From positions 1 through 42,254 of the forward strand of contig NZ_KB889715.1 of assembly GCF_000372745.1 (NCBI RefSeq): a stretch of DNA of 42,254 nucleotides, in the 5' to 3' direction. Position numbers and translations under genes: made by a program. Below, one piece after another: positions 1,479 through 9,772 of this stretch. This DNA comes from Embleya scabrispora DSM 41855. Its GTDB lineage: Bacteria > Actinomycetota > Actinomycetes > Streptomycetales > Streptomycetaceae. Positions within the stretch are counted from its first letter, which is position 1, and each line of letters opens with the position of its first letter. A model generated the notes under the pieces. That model saw nothing but the letters and a program-made list of their open reading frames with translations, was not told the origin of the DNA and did not search any database.

Positions 1479-2192
1479 TCAGCGGCCGGCGGTCTGGCCG
1501 CCGTCGACGGGGAGGATGACGCCGGTAACGAACGGGGCGTTCTCAAGGTAGACCACCGCGTCGACGATGTCGCTCACCTCGCCCATCCGGCCGACCGGGT
1601 GCGAGGCGGCGAGGATCTCGTGGAACTCCTCGGGGTGCATGGGGGTCTTGATGGTGCCCAGGGCGACGGCGTTGCTGCGGATGCCGCGGGTGGCGTACTC
1701 GATGGCCAGCGCCTTGGTGGCGGATTGCAGGCCACCCTTGGTCAGCGAGGCGAGTACCGAGGTCACGTTGGAGTCGGGCTGGTCGCCCAGGCTGCTCGTG
1801 ATCTGCACGATGTGACCGCCTCCCTGTTCGAGCATGCGCTCGACCGCGAGCTGGGTGATCCGGAAGAAGCCGTCCACGTTCACGCCGAGCACCGCCTCGT
1901 AGTCGTCCTCGGTGTAGTCGGTGAAGGACTTGGCGACGAAGATCCCGGCGTTGTTGATCAGAGTGTCGATGTGGCCGAACCGCTCGACACCCGCGGCGAT
2001 GACACGCTCGGCGGTGCCACGGTCGGCGATGTCGCCCTGGATGGTGAGGATCTCCGGGTCCTGCGACTCGGGAATGCCACGCGAGGTGGCGACGACGGCG
2101 TAGCCCAGCTTCCGGTAGGCGGCGACAAGGCCGGCGCCGATCCCCTGCGAGGCACCGGTGATGACCGCGACCTTCTGACGTTGACTGCTCAT
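1479..2192 (-). CDS. short-chain dehydrogenase/reductase family protein lacking the catalytic Tyr
   Basis: This 237-residue classical SDR has the NAD(P)-binding TGASQGIG motif (residues 12-19), NNAG (80-83) and the conserved active-site Ser region ITSS (131-134). The position that normally carries the catalytic Tyr of YxxxK is Ala148, with Lys152 retained (ALASLTK-type context). I recall this SLTKGG variant from related actinobacterial proteins, so it may be a subfamily trait rather than a fresh mutation. The C-terminus (FVTGVILPVDGGQ) is complete. The start is ATG at 2192, with an AAGAAGG ribosome binding site. The gene reads away from two GACCGGTC operators set into its own promoter, so control by the TetR-family protein at 2910 is likely. 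The substrate is unknown. Loss of the Tyr makes ordinary SDR carbonyl chemistry doubtful. Confidence 0.9.
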   Translation of the reverse strand: MSSQRQKVAVITGASQGIGAGLVAAYRKLGYAVVATSRGIPESQDPEILTIQGDIADRGTAERVIAAGVERFGHIDTLINNAGIFVAKSFTDYTEDDYEAVLGVNVDGFFRITQLAVERMLEQGGGHIVQITSSLGDQPDSNVTSVLASLTKGGLQSATKALAIEYATRGIRSNAVALGTIKTPMHPEEFHEILAASHPVGRMGEVSDIVDAVVYLENAPFVTGVILPVDGGQTAGR

Positions 2193-2230: not shown

Positions 2231-2280
2231 ACTAGTCGACCGGTCAGTTTCAAAGTAGACGACCGGTCGACAATTGTCAA
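2231..2280 (-). promoter_or_regulatory. promoter of the dehydrogenase gene with two TetR-type operators (sites A and B)
   Basis: On the reverse strand a consensus TTGACA (-35, 2280-2275) is followed after 17 bases by TACTTT (-10, 2257-2252). Site B (core GACCGGTC, 2261-2268) fills the spacer. Site A (core 2238-2245) covers the predicted transcription start. The cores are 23 bases apart. Occupation of either would block RNA polymerase. The flanks of site B (TAGAC left, GACAA right) extend the dyad to about 18 bases. Confidence 0.8.
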
Positions 2281-2601
2281 AGAGCGGCTCCGGGCAGGGG
2301 TGGCCCGGCCTCCGGCGGCAGCGCAAGTAGCCCGAGCGGGCTGCGTGTGGCCTGACACGCGCAGGTGATGCGGGAAACCGATCCGGTGAACGGTGGCCGC
2401 AGCAGCGGCGGCCGGGGCAACGACGGCCCTCGGGAGCGGACCCGGTGGCAACCGCGGGGAGCCAGTGTTTACGACGCGGGGCGGTGAACCGGCGATGCGT
2501 GCGCGGCCCCGCCCTCGCGAGCCCGGCCGGAGGCCGCCGGCTGCGCCGCGGGCTGCGGCCGGGCACACGGCTCCAGGCCGTTCGACCCCGGCTGCGGCAG
2601 G
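2281..2601. other. intergenic stretch without a supportable gene
   Basis: This stretch lies between the dehydrogenase promoter and the muconolactone isomerase-like remnant. All open frames here are Arg/Pro/Ala-rich shadow frames. I see no domain, RNA gene or clear terminator. Confidence 0.4.
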
Positions 2602-2861
2602 TCAGACCGCGTCGCCGGTGCCGCCTGGGTCGTTGGGGCGCGAGTGGACGGGAGTGACCACCGCAGTCGTCCACGGCCACAGGGAAGTGAGCCGAGCACC
2701 TTCTCGTACAGCTCGGCCTCGTCGGCAGCCCGCCACAGACCGACACTGCGCAGTTCACCCACCGGGCGCCACGGCCTGACCAGGTGACCGACGGCAGCCA
2801 ACTCCGCGGCCCTGACGGCTTCGGCCGTGCGGCGGCGGTCGACCTCGGTCGAATCGCCCAC
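2602..2861 (-). pseudogene. muconolactone delta-isomerase-like remnant (second copy of 9005-9307)
   Basis: The reverse-strand translation (TEVDRRRTAEAVRAAELAAV, GHLVRPWRPVGELRSVGLWR) follows the intact isomerase-like protein at 9005-9307 closely. It then slips frame after LGSLP and resumes in another frame as PLWPWTTAVVTPVHSRPNDP to a stop at 2602. The first 15 or so residues (the KEFLVTLTTTVP part) are missing. The sequence begins directly next to the operator at 2867. Both the missing N-terminus and the frameshift mark it as dead. Together with the intact copy it is evidence for a partial duplication of this locus. Confidence 0.75.
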
Positions 2862-2903
2862 TAGCCGACCGGTCCAGTAAACATAGTCGGGCGGTCGTAT
2901 ACT
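2861..2903 (+). promoter_or_regulatory. tetR promoter with operators C and D; probable leaderless start
   Basis: Site C has the exact core GACCGGTC (2867-2874). Site D (2889-2896) is a degenerate GGGCGGTC whose flanks TAGTC and GTA keep the pattern. The cores are 22 bases apart. A -10 hexamer TATACT lies at 2898-2903, one base after site D. That puts the transcription start at about the A of the ATG at 2910. No Shine-Dalgarno is present, so the message is probably leaderless. The layout implies autorepression by the TetR-family protein encoded just downstream. Confidence 0.75.
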
Positions 2904-2909
2904 GGCAAC

Positions 2910-3527
2910 ATGGGACGGACCAGTGATGCCAGAGAGAAGATCCTCAGCGCTGCGCAGTCACTCATCGAGCTGCGTGGCTACTCGGCCCTGGGTGTGGCCG
3001 AGATCTGCAAGGCAGCCGAGGTACCCAAGGGCAGTTTCTACTACTTCTTCGAGTCCAAGGAGGCTCTCGCGCTGGCCGTGATCGACGAGCACTGGGCCAC
3101 CCAGCAGCGCGACTGGACCCGCATCATGAACAGCGACGCGGAGCCACTGCAGCGGCTGCGGCAGCTGTTCGAGGAGACGGAAGCGGGCCAGCGCGCCGGC
3201 CAGCAGAGCTGCGGGACCGTTTCGGGCTGCCTGTTCGGGAATCTCACCCTGGAGATGAGCAACCAGACCGAAGCGGTCCGCAAGCGCCTGCAGGAGATCT
3301 TCGACGCCCAGGCCGAGATGGTCGACTCGGCCATCACCGAGGCCCTCGAGCGTGGCGAGGTCACGGTCACCGACACCCGTGCGGCCGCCCGATCCGTCGT
3401 CGCACAACTCGAGGGCCAGGTCCTGTTCGCCAAGCTCTACAACAACACGTCCCAGCTCGGCACCCTCTGGACCAACTGCCTGGCGATGCTGGGCGCTCGC
3501 GCGCCCCAGGCGCCGGCAGACGCCTGA
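2910..3527 (+). CDS. TetR/AcrR-family repressor resembling NemR
   Basis: The protein has 205 residues. An N-terminal TetR helix-turn-helix (about residues 8-55) contains VAEICKAAEVPKGSFYYFFE. The C-terminal ligand domain has the stretch SCGTVSGCLFGN (100-111), followed by a Thr-Glu-x-x-x-Arg segment. This matches the region of E. coli NemR that carries its reactive cysteines, from memory of that protein. Cys101 and Cys107 are therefore candidate electrophile or hypochlorite sensors. The gene is preceded by two GACCGGTC-type operators. The same operator occurs at the dehydrogenase and wrbA promoters, so this is the probable local master repressor. A nitronate monooxygenase gene follows in the same direction. 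An eroded inverted second copy lies at 4713-5538. Ligand and regulon are inferences. Confidence 0.9.
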   Translation: MGRTSDAREKILSAAQSLIELRGYSALGVAEICKAAEVPKGSFYYFFESKEALALAVIDEHWATQQRDWTRIMNSDAEPLQRLRQLFEETEAGQRAGQQSCGTVSGCLFGNLTLEMSNQTEAVRKRLQEIFDAQAEMVDSAITEALERGEVTVTDTRAAARSVVAQLEGQVLFAKLYNNTSQLGTLWTNCLAMLGARAPQAPADA

Positions 3528-3625
3528 GACGACGGACAGCCGCAGGTCTCGATCCGCAGTTGTCGGGGCCGATCGGTGGACCCGACGCGGTGAGCATCGC
3601 CGGCTCGCAGGAGGAGGACACGGTC

Positions 3626-4657
3626 ATGGTCTCGCCACTGGTTGCCCTCGGGGTGAGCACTCCGATTCTCGCCGCGCCCATGGCCGGCGGCCCGACCACG
3701 CCCGAACTTGTCATCGCGGCGGCCGGTGCCGGCGGCCTCGGGTTCATCGCCGGTGGGTACAAGACCGCGGACTCCCTGGGCGAGCAGATCGCCCGTGTCC
3801 GCTCGGCGGGCGTCGGATTCGGGGTCAACGTGTTCGTGCCGAATCCGGTGCCGGTGGATCCGGGAGCCTTCCGCGCCTTCGCCCGTGCGATCGCACCGGT
3901 GGCCCGGGCGTACGGCGTGGACACCACGGAGGCCGGGATCGTGGAGGACGACGACCACTGGGCGGACAAGATCGACCTCCTGCTCTCCGCCCCCGTACCG
4001 GTCGTCAGCTTCACCTTCGGCATCCCGGAACCGGCGGTCGTCGCCGCCTTTCGCGCGGCCGGAACCCTGGTCGTCCAGACGGTCACCTCACCCGTGGAGG
4101 CCCGCGCCGCCGCACGAGCGGGCGTCGATGTGCTTGCCGTGCAGGCTTCGGCTGCCGGAGGCCACTCGGGCACGTTGACGCCGCAGCGCACGCCCCCTGC
4201 CGTGCCCCTGCCCGACCTGCTGGAAGCGGTTCGGAAGGTGGTGTCCATGCCCCTGATTGCCGCAGGTGGCATCGCCGCACCGGACGCCGTGACCGAAGCG
4301 CTCCGGGCCGGGGCCGTGGCAGCCATGGTGGGTACCGTCCTGCTGTCCGCCGACGAAGCCGGGACCTCCTCCCCCTACCGGGCCGTGCTCGCCGACCCGG
4401 CACGCCGTCGGACGGTGGTGACACGCGCGTTCACCGGTCGCCCGGCGCGAGCGCTGCGCAACGACTTCACCGATCGGTTCGGCGACCTGGCCCCGGACGG
4501 TTACCCGGCCCTGCACCACCTGACCAGCCCGATGCGCAGGGCCGCAGCGGCGGCCAACGATCCGGAGCGGATCAACCTGTGGGCTGGAACGGGCTTCCGT
4601 CACGCGACCGCGGAGCCCACCGCGCGGATTCTTCAACGACTGGCCTCCCGAGCATGA
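3626..4657 (+). CDS. nitronate monooxygenase-family FMN enzyme
   Basis: The protein has 343 residues from ATG 3626, chosen because GGAGGAGG (3610-3617) lies at ideal spacing. A TTG 22 codons upstream is in frame but has no such site. The fold is the 2-nitropropane dioxygenase/nitronate monooxygenase TIM barrel. Visible features are APMAGGPTTPELVIAAAGAG near the N-terminus, the phosphate/flavin-binding GGIAAPDAV and GAVAAMVGT stretches, and the AGGHSG motif with the expected active-site His. Such enzymes use FMN and O2 to oxidise toxic nitronates. Many relatives instead reduce quinones or enones, so the substrate is open. It starts 98 bases after the TetR-family gene and may be cotranscribed, which would suit an electrophile-stress unit. 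Confidence 0.88.
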   Translation: MVSPLVALGVSTPILAAPMAGGPTTPELVIAAAGAGGLGFIAGGYKTADSLGEQIARVRSAGVGFGVNVFVPNPVPVDPGAFRAFARAIAPVARAYGVDTTEAGIVEDDDHWADKIDLLLSAPVPVVSFTFGIPEPAVVAAFRAAGTLVVQTVTSPVEARAAARAGVDVLAVQASAAGGHSGTLTPQRTPPAVPLPDLLEAVRKVVSMPLIAAGGIAAPDAVTEALRAGAVAAMVGTVLLSADEAGTSSPYRAVLADPARRRTVVTRAFTGRPARALRNDFTDRFGDLAPDGYPALHHLTSPMRRAAAAANDPERINLWAGTGFRHATAEPTARILQRLASRA

Positions 4658-4712
4658 ATGGCCCGGTTGATTCGGGATCGCCCAAGGGGCGCGAGCCCTG
4701 TCGGTGACGGAG

Positions 4713-4917
4713 TGCGCAGCGAATGGGCCCGGATCCTGCCGAACGATGCGCAGCCGCGACTGCGCCGACCGTTCGAGGAGACCGGGGCTGACCTGTGCGC
4801 AGCCGGCGGCGTTGCGGGAGCGTCTCCAAATGCGTGTTCGGCAATCTCGCCCGAAGCCCAGCAAGCGGACCGAGCCCATCCGCAAACGCCTGCGGCAGAT
4901 ACTCGACCCCGGGAGGC
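4713..4917 (+). pseudogene. middle section of a decayed second tetR copy, forward strand
   Basis: Three successive forward frames carry pieces that align in order with residues about 69-130 of the intact regulator. They are SEWARILPNDAQPRLRRPFE (compare RDWTRIMNSDAEPLQRLRQL), then CGSVSKCVFGNLA (compare CGTVSGCLFGNLT), then RTEPIRKRLRQILDP (compare QTEAVRKRLQEIFDA). The need to change frame twice, and the absence of both ends, make it a remnant. Its N-terminal counterpart lies inverted at 5453-5538 with a different gene fragment in between. Confidence 0.75.
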
Positions 4918-5029
4918 CGCCGACACTCGTCGCTCTCCGCACGTCGACCGGACATTGCAGCGTCAGCTCCCGACGAGCCCCGGATCGGTGGGCAGGCCAA
5001 GCGCGAGGCTTTCCTCGGGCGTCTGCCAC

Positions 5030-5452
5030 CTACGGCAACACCTTCGGCAGTCGCTCCGCCAGAATCGCGGCCGGGGCGTGGCAGACGACGGCGTGCGGTT
5101 TGCCCGAGGGCGAGCGCCGCGGTCAGCAACCGGCCCACGTCGGCGTTGAGCCACAGGTCTTCCATCGGACCGTGGCCGCCGGGGAGGTGGACGGCGTCGT
5201 AGTCCTCCAAGCGGGCGTCCGACAGCTGGATCGGTCGCCGGATCTCCTCCACGGTGCGGATGACACACTCCAGGGCGAGGGTGATCCGGGCACGGCCTGC
5301 CATCTCGGGGCGCAGGCTCATCATGTCCAGGTTCGGGACGACCCCGTTGGGGGTGGCCACCACCACGTGGTGGCTTCCGTGAGCGCCTTGTACGGGGCCG
5401 CGAACTCCCCGGCCCAGTAACCGGTCGCGTGTCTGGTGCCGTCCTTGAGCAC
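5030..5452 (-). pseudogene. DJ-1/PfpI-family (class I glutamine amidotransferase-like) remnant
   Basis: Reverse-strand pieces read VLKDGTRHATGYWAGEFAAP, then in the next frame VVVATPNGVVPNLDMMSLRP and EDYDAVHLPGGHGPMEDLWL, and after another shift AVVCHAPAAILAERLPKVLP to a TAG at 5030. These are the start, the PGGHGPM loop and the nucleophile-elbow Cys (VVCHAP) of the DJ-1/PfpI family. Members act as chaperones, glyoxalases or proteases. Two frameshifts, an early stop and the missing C-terminal third make it inactive. Its 5-prime end is joined within a few bases to the inverted tetR N-terminus at 5453. Confidence 0.75.
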
Positions 5453-5538
5453 TTGCAGATCTCGGCCACGGCCGGCACCGAATAGCACCGCAGTTCGATG
5501 AGCGACTGCACGGCGCTGATGATCTTCCCCCGGCGCAC
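5453..5538 (-). pseudogene. N-terminal piece of the decayed second tetR copy, reverse strand
   Basis: The reverse strand from GTG 5538 reads RRGKIISAVQSLIELRCYSV then PAVAEICK, nearly the same as residues 8-34 of the intact regulator. A few more matching codons lie upstream without a start. The frame then merges into the DJ-1-like remnant inside a shared AAGTGCTC stretch. The upstream region, with two operator sites, is also a copy of the intact gene's promoter, so promoter and N-terminus were duplicated together. Confidence 0.8.
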
Positions 5539-5560
5539 CGGTCCATCCGATGGTTGCAGA

Positions 5561-5603
5561 CATACGACCGCTCGACTACTCTCATACTAGACCGGTCGGC
5601 TAC
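5561..5603 (-). promoter_or_regulatory. duplicated tetR operator/promoter region (sites E and F)
   Basis: On the reverse strand site F (exact core GACCGGTC, 5590-5597) and site E (GAGCGGTC, at 5573-5566) are 24 bases apart. They align base for base over most of 40 positions with the intact tetR promoter. The -10 hexamer TATACT of the intact copy has become TATGTC-like. It may still bind the repressor, as a decoy or to control something rightward, but no intact gene is positioned to use it. Confidence 0.65.
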
Positions 5604-5718
5604 TAATCCCCGGTGTCCACGCGCGCAGTCCGCGACGACGCACAGCGGGAGCCGCCTCCGCACGCCCACGCGCAGATGAGAGCCGAAGCGATGAGCCATC
5701 CGATACATGACGCCCTTC

Positions 5719-5750
5719 GGCGCCGGAAGGCCGCTTCGGCTCCCGGCGCC
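5719..5750. terminator. GC-rich hairpin downstream of the TetR remnant
   Basis: GGCGCCGG (5719-5726) pairs with CCGGCGCC (5743-5750) around a 16-base loop. It sits about 40 bases past the stop of the reverse-strand TetR-like gene. There is no T-run, as is common in actinobacteria, so termination is only a possibility. The 188 bases from 5603 to 5790 otherwise hold no gene that I can support. Confidence 0.35.
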
Positions 5751-5790
5751 GGGTCCTCGCGACGGGAGGTGCACATGGCGCGCCGCGGAT

Positions 5791-6252
5791 TCAGTGGATG
5801 GTGGCGACGGCGGTGCGGTACAGGACTTCCTCGGCTCGGTCCCACGACCAGCCGTTCTCGACCACCAACGTACGCCAGCCGCCGGGGCCGAACCAGAACC
5901 GCAGCAGGTCCGCCGTCTCGTCCACCGTGTAGCGGGGAGGTGGAGCCAGAGTGTGGAGGTGACCGGCGGCGGCGTGGAGTGCGTCACGGTAGTCCGTGGT
6001 CGCACGTTCCCACAGCGCCTCGCCGTGCTCGTGGGAGGGCAGGGCCTTGCGGACCGCCTCGTGCACGGTGAACTGCCCCTCATTGCCCAGCCGCGTGCCG
6101 CGGGCGAGGGCTTCGAGAACCCCCTCGGGCGTCCGCTGGGCGATCACCTGTTCCATGGCCTGCTCGTAGTCCGGCGCCGCGATGTCCGCGACGGTCACTC
6201 GCCCGTAGCCGCGGTCGGCGAACAACTCGGCGGCCCGCCGCAGGATCAGCAC
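5791..6252 (-). pseudogene. TetR-family regulator lacking part of its DNA-binding domain
   Basis: The frame starts ILRRAAELFADRGYGRVTVA DIA, the usual first helices of a TetR protein, but then jumps straight to PDYEQAMEQVIAQRTPEGVL. The recognition helix and fourth helix (normally about 20-25 residues containing SxxTxYxxFxxK) are absent. The C-terminal domain (RYTVDETADLLRFWFGPGGW, WSWDRAEEVLYRTAV) seems complete. Upstream codons continue the typical start (FKRAYISPLREEAAARAR) to about 6310, but the expected ATG is ATC. The only usable start is the GTG at 6252, inside helix 1. A protein made from it could not bind DNA normally. Confidence 0.7.
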
Positions 6253-6451
6253 ACGCGCCCGAGCGGCGGCCTCCTCACGCAGGGGTGAGATGTACGCGCG
6301 CTTGAAGGCGATGGGCCACCCTACCGATGACCGTTTGACGTATTGATTAGGCGCTTTGGAACTTCAATTACGCCCGGCCCGACCGAACCGAACCGGTTGC
6401 GGCAGCCGAGGCGGCGGCCGGCGAAGGCCGCACAGCGGAGAGGTGGAAACG

Positions 6452-7036
6452 ATGACCCCGGACACCGTCGAACTGGCGCACGGGCTCTTCCGGATACTCG
6501 AGACGGGCGACCCGGCCCTGGCTCTCGATGTCGTGGGCGAGGACAACCACAACCGGGAGGCCGCCGTCGCACCGCCGGCCTGCGCCGCAGCGGGACCGGC
6601 GGGCACACTGGCCTCGTCGGCGTGGCTGCGTTCGGCCTTCAGCGACCTGCGCTTCCCCGTCCTCGGCATTGCCGCGAACGATGATCAGGTCTGGGTCCGG
6701 CTGCGCATGCAGGGTCGGCACACCGGCCCGTTCGTGCGTTTCCGGGACGGCGCGCTCGACCAGGCCATCCCCCCGACCGGACGCGAGATCGATTTCGAGC
6801 AGGTCCACGTGCTCGACATCCGCAACGCGAAGGTGGTCCGGCACGAGGCGCTGCGGGACGACATCGCCATGCTCGGGCAGCTCGGCGTATTCCCCCCGTC
6901 TCCGGCCACCGCCCTGCGCATGCTCGCCTGGCGGATGTCCGGACGGGCCGCCCGCGCGGCCGCCGAGGTCACGAGCCTGGCCGCCGACGCCGCCGGCACC
7001 GCCGCGGGCACCCCGCGTCCGGGCGACGCGGAGTAA
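6452..7036 (+). CDS. SnoaL-like ester cyclase/polyketide cyclase-family protein
   Basis: The protein has 194 residues from ATG 6452, preceded by GAGAGGTGG. It has the SnoaL/NTF2-like fold signature. An N-terminal helix (ELAHGLFRILETGDPALALD) is followed by a helix-strand region (WLRSAFSDLRFPVLGIAAND), then WVRLRMQGRHTGPF and a C-terminal strand set ending FEQVHVLDIRNAKVVRHEAL with DDIAMLGQLG. True SnoaL enzymes close polyketide rings by aldol chemistry. Most relatives of this short type have no known reaction. An Ala/Thr-rich tail of about 25 residues follows the domain. It stands alone between remnants, and no operator of the local regulon is seen in front of it. Confidence 0.8.
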   Translation: MTPDTVELAHGLFRILETGDPALALDVVGEDNHNREAAVAPPACAAAGPAGTLASSAWLRSAFSDLRFPVLGIAANDDQVWVRLRMQGRHTGPFVRFRDGALDQAIPPTGREIDFEQVHVLDIRNAKVVRHEALRDDIAMLGQLGVFPPSPATALRMLAWRMSGRAARAAAEVTSLAADAAGTAAGTPRPGDAE

Positions 7037-7164
7037 CCGACGGGTTGCCCGGACCGCCCGTCGGGTGCACGGTTGCGTCACGCCACCCGTCCATACGGGA
7101 CTCGTCCGAGGCCGAAGGCACAGGCGGCGGAAGCGACTTGGTGCTCATACCCGCCGACACACCC

Positions 7165-7335
7165 CGCAGTCGAGACTGCGATGCATCCCGAGCGGGCACC
7201 ACGCGCGGCCCGCCGAACTCCACCCGGTGGGTCGCATGGGCGTAGGTCGGCGACATCACCGATGCGGTGATCCACCCGGAGAACGCCAGCTTCGCCACCG
7301 GGGCGATCCTGCCCGTGGACACCGGACGACACCGC
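7165..7335 (+). pseudogene. C-terminal remnant of a second SDR copy
   Basis: Forward frames carry VETAMHPERA, then after a shift HARPAELHPVGRMG, then after another shift VGDITDAVIHPENASFATGA ILPVDTG. These align in order with the last 60 residues of the dehydrogenase at 1479-2192 (KTPMHPEEF, ASHPVGRMGEVSDIVDAV, FVTGVILPVDGG). Nothing of the nucleotide-binding half is present. It supports duplication of the locus. Confidence 0.7.
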
Positions 7336-7448
7336 TGGACACCGACCACGGCAGTGGTCGGCCGGGGATCCGGCGGCTGCCGGCCGCATCACCGCCGGGC
7401 GGTTTCCGGGCGGTGCCGTCGCTCCGGTCGGCCTTTCGGCGTGTGTGG

Positions 7449-7749
7449 TCACGAGGATTGGGCCAGATGTCGGCCGAGGTCGCGCTCGACGCCGTCCGGA
7501 CGCCGGAGGCCGGCATCGAAGAGCCGCTTGACGCGGTGGATGTTCTCCGTTCGGCCGGACGTGCGGAAGAACACGGCCGGTGCCGTCCCGAACCCCTCGA
7601 CGGGAGGCAGGGGTGACCGCATCGACGAGCGACTTGGCTTCCCGTACCGCCACGCGGTCGAAGCCGGGGACCCTGCGGGCGAAGGCGTCGACGAACTGCT
7701 CCAGTTCGCGCTCCGGCACGACGCGGTTGACGCAGACGCCGACGCCGCC
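7449..7749 (-). pseudogene. enoyl-CoA hydratase/isomerase C-terminal remnant
   Basis: The reverse strand reads VNRVVPERELEQFVDAFARR and VPGFDRVAVREAKSLVDAVT, then in another frame LPPVEGFGTAPAVFFRTSGR and RVKRLFDAGLRRPDGVERDL to a stop at 7449. This is the usual C-terminal part of crotonase-fold proteins (VNRVVP followed by the helical trimerisation region). The N-terminal oxyanion-hole half is missing and one frameshift is present. Confidence 0.65.
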
Positions 7750-7960
7750 CGGGCCGGCGCCGTGTTCACCCTCGGCGCCATGGTCGGCGCCACACACACA
7801 TGGCCCGCGCCACAGCCGGCCCCGACCTGTCCGACGAACCACTGTGGTCCGTCGCCGACCGGCTCAGGCGGCGCGCGCCGCGAACCCTGCCGCCCATCAC
7901 CCGACGCGCACCCCAGGTCCCGGCTCGGTGCGGTGCGGCAGGCTCGCGGGTCGCGGCCAT

Positions 7961-7990
7961 TTGCCACTAGACGACCGGTCGACTAATCTC
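7961..7990 (+). promoter_or_regulatory. wrbA promoter with operator G in its spacer
   Basis: TTGCCA (-35, 7961-7966) and TAATCT (-10, 7984-7989) are 17 bases apart. The exact core GACCGGTC (7973-7980), flanked by TAGAC and GACTA, occupies the spacer. This is the best-preserved dyad of the set and has the same geometry as site B at the dehydrogenase promoter. Repression by the TetR-family protein at 2910 is the obvious reading. Confidence 0.8.
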
Positions 7991-8062
7991 CGGAGGGTCG
8001 ACTTCGGCTCACGAAGTCCCCCGTGACAAGAAACCGAGTCCCTCATGAAGTGGAGAGCCCGC

Positions 8063-8689
8063 GTGGCCACCCCCGTCAAGGTCGCTGTCGTCTACTACTC
8101 GTCCACCGGCACGATCGCCGAGATCGCCCAGGAACTGCGGGATGCCGGCATCAAGGCCGGTGCCGAGGTCCGTCTGCTCAAGGTCGCCGAACTCGCTCCG
8201 AGGGCGGCCATCGACGCCAACCCCGCGTGGGCCGCCAACCACGCCGCCACGGCGGGCATCCCCGAGGCCACCCCCGAGGACATCGAGTGGGCCGACGCCG
8301 TCCTCTTCGGCACCCCCACCCGCTTCGGCAACGTCTCGTCCCAGCTGAAGCAGTTCATCGACACCCTCGGCGGCCTCTGGGCCGAAGGCAAGCTCGCCGA
8401 CAAGGTCTACAGCGGCTTCGTCTCCAGTGCGACCGCGCACGCCGGCCAGGAGTCCACCCTGCTGGCGCTCTACAACTCCATCCACCACTTCGGCGGCATA
8501 ACCGTCAGCCCCGGGTTCACCGACCCCGCCAAGTTCACCGACGGCAACCCCTATGGCACCTCGCACGTCGATGCCCAAGGCGGCAACCCCGTCGACGACA
8601 CCACGCGCACCGCCGCCCGAATCCAGATCGAGCGCGTCATCAAGATGGCCGCGGCGTTCAAGTCCGCCACCGTCAAGGACGCGGCCTGA
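8063..8689 (+). CDS. wrbA: WrbA-type NAD(P)H:quinone oxidoreductase (flavodoxin fold)
   Basis: The protein has 208 residues from GTG 8063, chosen because GTGGAGAG lies 7-13 bases upstream. An in-frame ATG at 8045 has no ribosome binding site. FMN phosphate-binding loop VVYYSSTGTIAEIA is near the N-terminus. GTPTRFGNVSSQLKQFID and a GGxW segment follow, and a later segment matches the NPYGTSHV region conserved in WrbA. WrbA enzymes are tetrameric FMN proteins that reduce quinones by two electrons and so avoid semiquinone radicals. The operator in its promoter places it in the same circuit as the NemR-like regulator and the dehydrogenase gene, which fits a quinone/electrophile response. A strong hairpin follows the stop. 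Confidence 0.92.
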   Translation: MATPVKVAVVYYSSTGTIAEIAQELRDAGIKAGAEVRLLKVAELAPRAAIDANPAWAANHAATAGIPEATPEDIEWADAVLFGTPTRFGNVSSQLKQFIDTLGGLWAEGKLADKVYSGFVSSATAHAGQESTLLALYNSIHHFGGITVSPGFTDPAKFTDGNPYGTSHVDAQGGNPVDDTTRTAARIQIERVIKMAAAFKSATVKDAA

Positions 8690-8708
8690 CCGACCCGCCG
8701 GGCGCATG

Positions 8709-8742
8709 CCTGTCAGGCGCCGCCCGCGGCGGCCCTGACAGG
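8709..8742 (+). terminator. hairpin terminator after wrbA
   Basis: CCTGTCAGG at the left pairs with CCTGACAGG at the right, and the inner GCCGC/GCGGC bases extend the stem. It begins 20 bases after the wrbA stop. There is no T-run, typical of actinobacterial terminators. Confidence 0.7.
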
Positions 8743-9004
8743 CTCCGACGGCACCGCTGTCTGCGTGCGGGGCCGCAATGTGGGTGCCGATGACGGACGA
8801 TGACAGAAGGCTCCTCCGTGCCGAACACGCCGCTGAAGCGCCCTGAGCCGGCCTCGGCGCCCTCGCCATCGTCGGCGCCGACCGCGGACCCGGTGCCCGC
8901 GAAAGCCGGGCGAGCCGTCCCGTGCGCGGGAGACACGGTGCCGCTCCGAGACGGGACCGGCGGCCCGGCGGCCCGTAAAGCAGAAGCGAGAGAGGAGAAG
9001 GGCC

Positions 9005-9307
9005 ATGAAGGAGTTCCTGGTCACGCTCACCACGACGGTGCCCGACGGGACCGACCCGGCCGAGGTCGGCCGGCGCCGCGCCGATGAGTCCGTGCGGGCG
9101 AAGGAGCTCGCCGCCACGGGCCACCTGGTCAGGCTGTGGCGCCCGGTGGGGAAGCTCTACAGCATCGGCGTATGGCGCGCCGACGACGAGGCGGATCTGC
9201 GCGAGAACGTCCTGGGGACGCTGCCCCTGTGGCCGTGGATGACCGCGGTGGTCACCGCCGTACAGCCGCACCCCAACGACCCGGGCCCGACAGGCCATTC
9301 CGCCTAG
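9005..9307 (+). CDS. muconolactone delta-isomerase-family small protein
   Basis: The protein has 100 residues from ATG 9005 with GAGGAGAAGG just upstream. The family signature is visible: KEFLVTLTTTVPDGTDPAEV at the start, then ESVRAKELAATGHLVRLWRP, SIGVWRADDEADLRENV and LPLWPWMTAVVTAVQPHPND. Classical members (CatC) form ferredoxin-like decamers and isomerise muconolactone in the beta-ketoadipate pathway. Streptomycete relatives outside catechol clusters are of unknown role. No catechol pathway genes are seen here, so the reaction should not be assumed. It is the intact partner of the remnant at 2602-2861. The 262 bases before it contain no other supportable gene. Confidence 0.82.
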   Translation: MKEFLVTLTTTVPDGTDPAEVGRRRADESVRAKELAATGHLVRLWRPVGKLYSIGVWRADDEADLRENVLGTLPLWPWMTAVVTAVQPHPNDPGPTGHSA

Positions 9308-9400
9308 TTCGAACCTTCCGCGCCCGTGGCATGCCCCACGGGCGCGGCAACGATCGCCATCGGGTGCCGCCCGTGCGGCCCCTTCATGAGAGGAGACCTG

Positions 9401-9772
9401 ATGAACGACGCGGCAGCACAGGACGCGATCCTGAGTGGCGTCATGGACCGGTGGAAGGCGGGGGTCGATGCCCACGAACCGGAGGAGGTCGCCGCATGTT
9501 TCACCGAGGACGCCGTCTTCCAGGGACTTCGTCCCTACGTCGTCGGCCGTCAGGGCATCGCCGAGTACTACGATGCGCAGCCTCTCGGGTTGACGGCGGA
9601 CTACCGGGTACTGGAGACACGACAGTTGGCCGAGGACGTCCTGCTCGGCTACCTGGGCGTCGACTTCTCGTTCACCGACCGACCGACCGTCAAGGTCACT
9701 CTCGGCGTCGTCTTGAGGCGTGCCGCCGACCGGTGGTCCATCGCCCACTACCAGGTATCGAAGCTGGATTGA
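9401..9772 (+). CDS. SnoaL/NTF2-fold small protein (SgcJ/DUF4440-like)
   Basis: The protein has 123 residues from ATG 9401, behind GAGAGGAGACC. It is a single NTF2-like domain. The first helix is AILSGVMDRWKAGVDAHEPE, then AACFTEDAVFQGLRPYVVGR, the strand-helix GIAEYYDAQPLG, and C-terminal strands ending DRWSIAHYQVSKLD. Homologues annotated SgcJ/EcaC are small proteins in enediyne and other gene clusters with no proven catalysis. It lies 93 bases after the isomerase-like gene and could share its transcript. Its role is unknown. Confidence 0.78.
   Translation: MNDAAAQDAILSGVMDRWKAGVDAHEPEEVAACFTEDAVFQGLRPYVVGRQGIAEYYDAQPLGLTADYRVLETRQLAEDVLLGYLGVDFSFTDRPTVKVTLGVVLRRAADRWSIAHYQVSKLD

Follow-up and report, generated by a model that had tools for sequence, protein, structure and literature searches.

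A predicted TetR-family repressor and candidate dyad operators at redox-gene promoters of Embleya scabrispora

The window analysed here (positions 1 to 42,254 of contig NZ_KB889715.1, Embleya scabrispora DSM 41855) contains a gene for a TetR-family protein (tetR) followed by a nitronate monooxygenase-family gene (NMO), a gene for an SDR-family oxidoreductase, and wrbA followed by genes of the muconolactone isomerase and SnoaL-like families (Table 1). The original prediction, made from these letters alone, linked several promoters to the TetR protein through repeated copies of one operator with the core GACCGGTC. The copies are present at the places described, as five exact and two near cores, and the paired sites have cores spaced 23, 22 and 24 bases apart, start to start. 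When scored against the pattern TAGNCGACCGGTCGNCTA, all seven sites show three mismatches or fewer, and the next-best site in the window shows four. The chance expectation at ≤3 mismatches is 0.19 sites per window (first-order Markov simulation, 200 runs). Two more exact cores occur in the window (28918, 39652), and the 18-mers surrounding them score 5 and 6 mismatches.

The extended dyad is not equally frequent elsewhere in the genome (11.39 Mb). Both places that match TAGNCGACCGGTCGNCTA with ≤1 mismatch lie inside the window, as do all four that match the stricter pattern TAGNNGACCGGTCNNCTA at the same threshold, for which the reversed control gave one place. At ≤3 mismatches, TAGNCGACCGGTCGNCTA is found at 69 places versus 51 for the reversed pattern, indicating that most of the loosely matching places outside the window are background. 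Five outside places have ≤2 mismatches; four of them (L003, L005, L006, L009) fall inside long open frames with high third-position GC content (GC3), and the fifth (L004) lies right at the start of an open frame, a position possibly upstream of a gene.

Table 1. Genes, promoter element and candidate operator sites of the locus (mismatches are to TAGNCGACCGGTCGNCTA)
Feature	Position	Strand	Basis or remark
SDR oxidoreductase, putative target	1479..2192	-	Pfam; operator upstream in 56/58 loci
Operator site 1	2233..2250 (core 2238-2245)	.	3 mismatches; downstream of SDR -10
Operator site 2	2256..2273 (core 2261-2268)	.	1 mismatch; within SDR -35/-10 spacer
Operator site 3	2862..2879 (core 2867-2874)	.	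2 mismatches; upstream site of tetR promoter; position occupied in many relatives
Operator site 4	2884..2901 (degenerate core 2889-2896, GGGCGGTC, 2 core mismatches)	.	3 mismatches; overlaps tetR -10; -26 position filled in most relatives
tetR -10 hexamer TATACT	2898-2903	+	one base after core, 6 bases before ATG
tetR, predicted NemR/AcuR-type repressor	2910..3527	+	Pfam TetR_N and TetR_C_13; PDB match NemR 4yze
NMO	3626..4657	+	Pfam NMO; behind tetR
Truncated tetR copy, ~30 codons	5440..5538	-	80% self-match, tblastn; runs into broken DJ-1/PfpI gene reaching ~4992
Operator site 5	5561..5578 (core from 5566, GACCGCTC, 1 core mismatch)	.	3 mismatches; in relic tetR promoter
Operator site 6	5585..5602 (core 5590-5597)	.	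2 mismatches; in relic tetR promoter
Operator site 7	7968..7985 (core 7973-7980)	.	0 mismatches; wrbA promoter spacer
wrbA, NAD(P)H:quinone oxidoreductase, putative target	8045..8689	+	NCBIfam NF002999 above cutoff; start may be GTG 8063
Muconolactone isomerase-family gene	9005..9307	+	Pfam PF02426; downstream of wrbA
SnoaL-like/SgcJ-like gene	9326..9772	+	Pfam and NCBIfam scans; downstream of isomerase

Conservation was assessed in the best 80 of 116 TetR loci found (69–90% identity). In 79 of them the dyad (≤3 mismatches) lies within 250 bp upstream of tetR, and the remaining locus (L029) has a four-mismatch form at the same place, at −27. This is the pattern expected of an autoregulating repressor. 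The dyad is kept while the flanks differ, and it matches 201 times across all 80 loci, compared to six matches of the reversed pattern in the same DNA. We then extended the survey to 297 genomes of the family, calling the dyad at ≤1 mismatch and TetR at E ≤1e-40. The dyad is found in 58 genomes and TetR in 56; 55 have both, three the dyad only, one TetR only and 238 neither (Fisher P = 4.5e-55). For the reversed pattern, present in 24 genomes of which four have TetR, the P value is 1. In the sole TetR-only genome, the match spans residues 1–122 and has a stop inside. Around the three dyad-only matches (16, 14 and 3 kb), there is no match to TetR, SDR, WrbA, NMO, isomerase, SnoaL or DJ-1. Collectively, these data strongly support the predicted wiring of one TetR protein to several promoters.

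The putative SDR promoter, on the minus strand, consists of TTGACA (2280–2275; a 6/6 fit), a 17-base spacer and TACTTT (2257–2252), and that of wrbA of TTGCCA (7961–7966), a 17-base spacer and TAATCT (7984–7989). At both, the core lies within the spacer, three bases before the −10. The operator of tetR extends into the −10 hexamer (GGTCGTATACT), and the promoter contains no −35 matching 4/6 or better. Hence placement of a core in the −35/−10 spacer, described for all three promoters, is seen at SDR and wrbA and is only half shown at tetR. A consensus promoter scanner reported none of these promoters, its single hit being on the other strand; it missed those of SDR and wrbA because their −10 hexamers match TATAAT at 3/6, below its limit. 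In relatives, the operator falls inside a consensus-like spacer at eight of nine wrbA loci. For SDR, it falls in the spacer at 11 of 58 loci and just downstream of the −10 at another 20, compared to 17 in-spacer fits among 1160 SDR regions with shuffled flanks. Paired sites in relatives are spaced by 22–24 bases in 29 of 39 pairs. In 79 of 80 loci, a −10-like hexamer at tetR ends 6–7 bases ahead of the start codon; in the remaining one (L047), the start used for scoring lay two codons too far downstream. This distance predicts a leaderless tetR mRNA that starts at or near the ATG, a prediction in which we place considerable confidence. A −10 at such a distance, with an operator overlapping the promoter, is the layout of the leaderless AcuR system.

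Four promoters had been credited with sites, and sites do occur at all four; three of the promoters look live. The fourth, at 5561–5602, is a dead relic, an inverted tetR promoter standing before a truncated tetR. Segment 5452–5602 matches 2862–3011, which covers the tetR promoter and the opening codons of the gene, in inverted orientation at 80% identity. Aligned with two relatives (L019, L024), it retains both operator sites, with the −10 and the start codon decayed, and beyond ∼30 codons its frame continues as a broken DJ-1/PfpI gene. On the other flank, the match to L019 (5452–5736) continues into the start of a divergent SnoaL-like gene, which is also cut off: its frame gives MSHPIHDALRRRKAA, after which it diverges from the L019 protein. 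Sites 5 and 6 may thus bind the repressor without controlling a live gene. Other gene debris nearby comprises the DJ-1/PfpI remnant (4992–5452, minus strand), a middle piece of tetR (4753–4910, plus), an isomerase copy (∼2614–2855, minus) and an SDR tail (7188–7329, plus), signs of repeated local duplication and decay.

The TetR protein scores 54.5 bits against PF00440 (cutoff 24) and 56 bits against PF16925 (cutoff 27), which places it in the TetR_C_13 subfamily. Its best sequence match in the PDB is E. coli NemR (4yze, 1e-20), making the earlier label 'NemR-like' an apt one. The best NCBIfam match is AcuR (NF051457), at 101.8 bits, below the equivalog cutoff of 247, and AcuR membership is not assigned. 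NemR's sensor positions, Cys106 and Lys175, are shared: the corresponding Cys107 and Lys175 are invariant in all 80 orthologs. Upstream of E. coli nemR lies the palindrome TAGAC-CGACTG-GTCTA, whose half-site is common to the dyad of the window; we take TAGAC-n6-GTCTA to be the NemR operator. In E. coli, however, the half-sites are six bases apart, whereas here they are eight apart around a fixed GACCGGTC core, so the dyad is not an operator of the NemR form. Overall identity to NemR is 28%, NemR Cys21 and Cys116 are replaced by Ile and Ser, and operators are found here at three live promoters. The operon differs as well, nemA and gloA not being among the eight neighbouring proteins scanned. 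NemR represses its own operon, which includes a reductase gene, and also gloA by readthrough (PMC3739934).

Similarities to AcuR of R. sphaeroides (acuR-acuI-dddL) include a leaderless repressor gene and an inverted-repeat operator over the promoter, given as TAATAGAC-n6-GTCTATTA in PMC3017554. Its operator spacing differs from that seen here, where operators stand at several promoters and the score falls short of the AcuR cutoff, and neither acuI nor dddL is among the eight neighbouring proteins scanned. Pantoea AltR of the alt cluster, as described in PMC13178969, is also NemR-related, represses itself and controls a gene cluster, with a key residue at Cys100; it differs in its operator (CAATCTAC-n6-GTAGATTG), in answering thiosulfinates and in controlling other genes. 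The putative half-site and layout in Embleya resemble the AcuR operator and the palindrome upstream of nemR, which suggests a way in which evolution may have altered the spacing of NemR/AcuR half-sites. Because the protein fails the AcuR cutoff and the locus differs from NemR in operator spacing and operon content, we class it as a predicted TetR_C_13 repressor of new membership, neither NemR nor AcuR itself.

Among the 80 loci, SDR is present in 58, of which 56 have the operator no more than 260 bp upstream of it, and wrbA is present in nine, all with the operator. The order and direction of wrbA, isomerase and SnoaL genes in the window recur in four of these nine (L032, L043, L044, L069), and the last two genes are probably part of the wrbA transcript. 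NMO is a possible target by readthrough from tetR. It has matches of at least 45% in 10 loci, lying behind tetR in two (L016, L017), behind SDR in three (L019, L024 and, in two frames, L040), divergent from SDR in two (L035, L043) and with no link to tetR or SDR in three (L058, L087 and, as a partial match, L030). A distant SnoaL-like gene (31–42% identity to that of the window) starts 3–98 bases from the tetR operator on the opposite strand in 12 of the 80 loci. In six loci taken from a clade with 46–51% TetR identity, an NMO-like gene (32–34%) is near the dyad in all six; tetR stands beside the dyad in three (L120, L121, L125) and ∼2.8 kb away in the others. In single relatives, operators adjoin genes for a mycothiol-dependent nitroreductase, DsbA, FMN reductase, aldo/keto reductase, and DJ-1- and glyoxalase-family proteins, assignments that rest on automatic frame choice and leave out two clusters (C4 and C5, partly antisense frames). 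The nitroreductase is Rv2466c-like and stands behind an operator in L087 (by profile scan) and L017 (by clustering), and in L017 an operator also precedes a DsbA-family gene. These arrangements hint that the repressor is connected with mycothiol chemistry. In a plasmid of Streptomyces tendae (L134), sites precede wrbA, an unnamed gene and tetR. The same plasmid carries a gene for an HxlR-family regulator, which separates SDR from tetR, and a gene for a 239-amino-acid protein without a Pfam match, the second with an operator next to it (8346–8822, 4219–4938).

These comparisons argue that the TetR protein binds the dyads and controls the three live promoters. We regard binding and autoregulation as very nearly assured, and control of SDR and wrbA as only slightly less so; the reading as a whole, covering who binds what and which promoters are controlled, we hold to be highly probable. 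In this model, a TetR dimer would bind the 18-base dyad TAGnCGACCGGTCGnCTA and, without inducer, block RNA polymerase at the tetR, SDR and wrbA promoters. Its own promoter would be covered at sites 2862 and 2884, the latter fused to the −10, with a leaderless tetR and then NMO downstream. At SDR, sites 2233 and 2256 would cover the spacer and the start region, and at wrbA, site 7968 would occupy the spacer, with the isomerase and SnoaL genes probably following. Release of the repressor would induce detoxifying redox enzymes together with fresh repressor.

Several observations weigh against this reading. One genome (G161) has a perfect dyad (L138, 7278–7295) without a TetR ortholog, and none of the seven queried proteins lies within 16 kb of it. 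Fisher's test ignores the shared ancestry of the genomes, and the 80 loci are not independent, two of them (L021, L022) sharing one contig. SDR genes without a site occur in L030 and L095, as does a second, 62% identical SDR in L020, and the SDR of the S. tendae plasmid has no operator even at ≤4 mismatches. By the fitting rule used, no consensus-like promoter with the operator was found at 27 of 58 SDR and one of nine wrbA loci, to which the missing −35 of tetR may be added. NMO is not behind tetR or SDR in five of its 10 loci, and relatives of the isomerase and close relatives of the SnoaL gene have an operator of their own in just 4 of 40 and 1 of 39 loci, respectively.

As for the inducer, we somewhat favour an electrophile or thiol-reactive compound. 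The likeliest candidates are reactive molecules, namely quinones and other thiol-reactive electrophiles, or else carbonyl or nitro compounds; the C-terminal domain would be their point of action, possibly through Cys107 with its neighbour Lys175. Three points tell against a thiol sensor of this kind. Cys107 and Lys175 are also present in an aligned PDB chain, 3bru, and the pair therefore marks the subfamily and is no proof of redox sensing; the Lys is dispensable in the NemR-based sensor Hypocrates (PMC8748444); and AcuR, of the same subfamily, responds to a ligand, acrylate (PMC3017554). With the Cys-Lys pair present in 3bru and AcuR gated by a ligand, the stronger case for an electrophile or quinone comes from gene content. 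NemR is inactivated by HOCl or electrophiles, and gene content is likewise what suggests such a response here. The main alternative, which concerns the inducer only, is that binding is the same and that release is by a reversible, specific small molecule (an acrylate-like acid, or an aromatic or natural-product intermediate), as in AcuR, with no thiol sensor and with the island being catabolic or biosynthetic-tailoring. AcuR is the best NCBIfam match, albeit at less than half its cutoff, and the acrylate-responsive AcuR is leaderless too (PMC3017554); genes of the muconolactone isomerase-like and SnoaL-like kinds point to the chemistry of aromatic compounds or polyketides. Yet many redox and detoxification enzymes are found under the operator in relatives, including the mycothiol-dependent nitroreductase and DsbA, and the cysteines are well kept, with Cys33 in 80, Cys101 in 79, Cys107 in 80 and Cys190 in 76 of the 80 orthologs. 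We consider this alternative possible and the less probable account of induction.

Another regulator, such as a different TetR paralog, might instead bind the dyads, with the TetR protein at 2910 merely one of its targets. The genome contains 29 TetR-like places at E ≤0.001 (counting tetR at 2910 and its relic fragment), and a second TetR-like gene of the window lies near site 6. However, the dyad and the TetR ortholog co-occur almost perfectly across the 297 genomes. Apart from the relic fragment, no other TetR-like place among 150 scored candidates in the genome exceeds 38% local identity, and paralogs matched over ≥140 residues reach only 25–31%. The helix-turn-helix domain of the second TetR-like gene (5791–6252, minus strand) aligns with the TetR_N profile over just half its length (positions 1–24 of 47). 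We judge this explanation very improbable. More improbable still is that the dyads are mere repeated DNA from local duplications without regulatory meaning: sites 5 and 6 do duplicate sites 3 and 4, and the fragments of isomerase, SDR and DJ-1 genes testify to recurrent rearrangement, but the SDR and wrbA promoters are no copies of the tetR promoter (the sole self-match involving them is 20 bases, 7968 versus 2256), and in the 80 loci the dyad outlasts its flanks.

Both the dyad and TetR are patchily distributed, each occurring in 8 of the 17 genera of the family survey, with just one genome out of four carrying either in the window's own genus. This pattern suggests gain and loss or transfer. 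TetR copies of 74–83% identity occur in five plasmid-collection records (Streptomyces, Embleya, Nonomuraea), and relatives are found in other actinomycete genera (Nonomuraea, Microbispora, Kribbella, Catenulispora). One genome (G162) has two TetR copies with mirrored dyads, each ∼0.14 Mb away from one end of a 9 Mb contig, an arrangement consistent with terminal inverted repeats. The upstream regions of three distant relatives (L135, L136, L137; 34–37% identity) were read by eye and left unscored; TAGTCGACCGGTCTA is found in Paenarthrobacter, and looser dyad-like matches in Thiothrix and Pseudomonas, which is suggestive. A broader picture can be offered, tentatively and with slightly more doubt than belief. 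The locus would be one instance of a portable actinomycete NemR-class electrophile/quinone regulon that uses a distinct operator code (eight-base spacing, GACCGGTC core), passes from genome to genome and picks up new promoters. SDR would be its most constant target, with redox enzymes (wrbA, NMO, mycothiol-dependent nitroreductase, DsbA, DJ-1, glyoxalase) joining by lineage. Here, the intact operators of the dying tetR copy could act as decoys that tune the repressor.

Among the papers listed by the literature searches, no account of this regulon or operator in actinomycetes came up. Of those that combine GACCGGTC with the TetR family, two concern different regulators, Thermus TTHB023 (PMC7022988) and one of Burkholderia PA degradation (PMC2770484); the same combination also lists Thermus SbtR (PMC4948773) and a PAA review (PMC9493321). 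An unnamed TetR gene, present in 56 of the 297 family genomes sampled, gains a defined candidate operator, a target list and a testable inducer class, and its tight promoter-operator might be used as a sensor element in Streptomyces. Genes similar to the second TetR-like gene of the window occur in L043 and L064, the latter also carrying the SnoaL-type cyclase gene found at 6452–7036 of the window.

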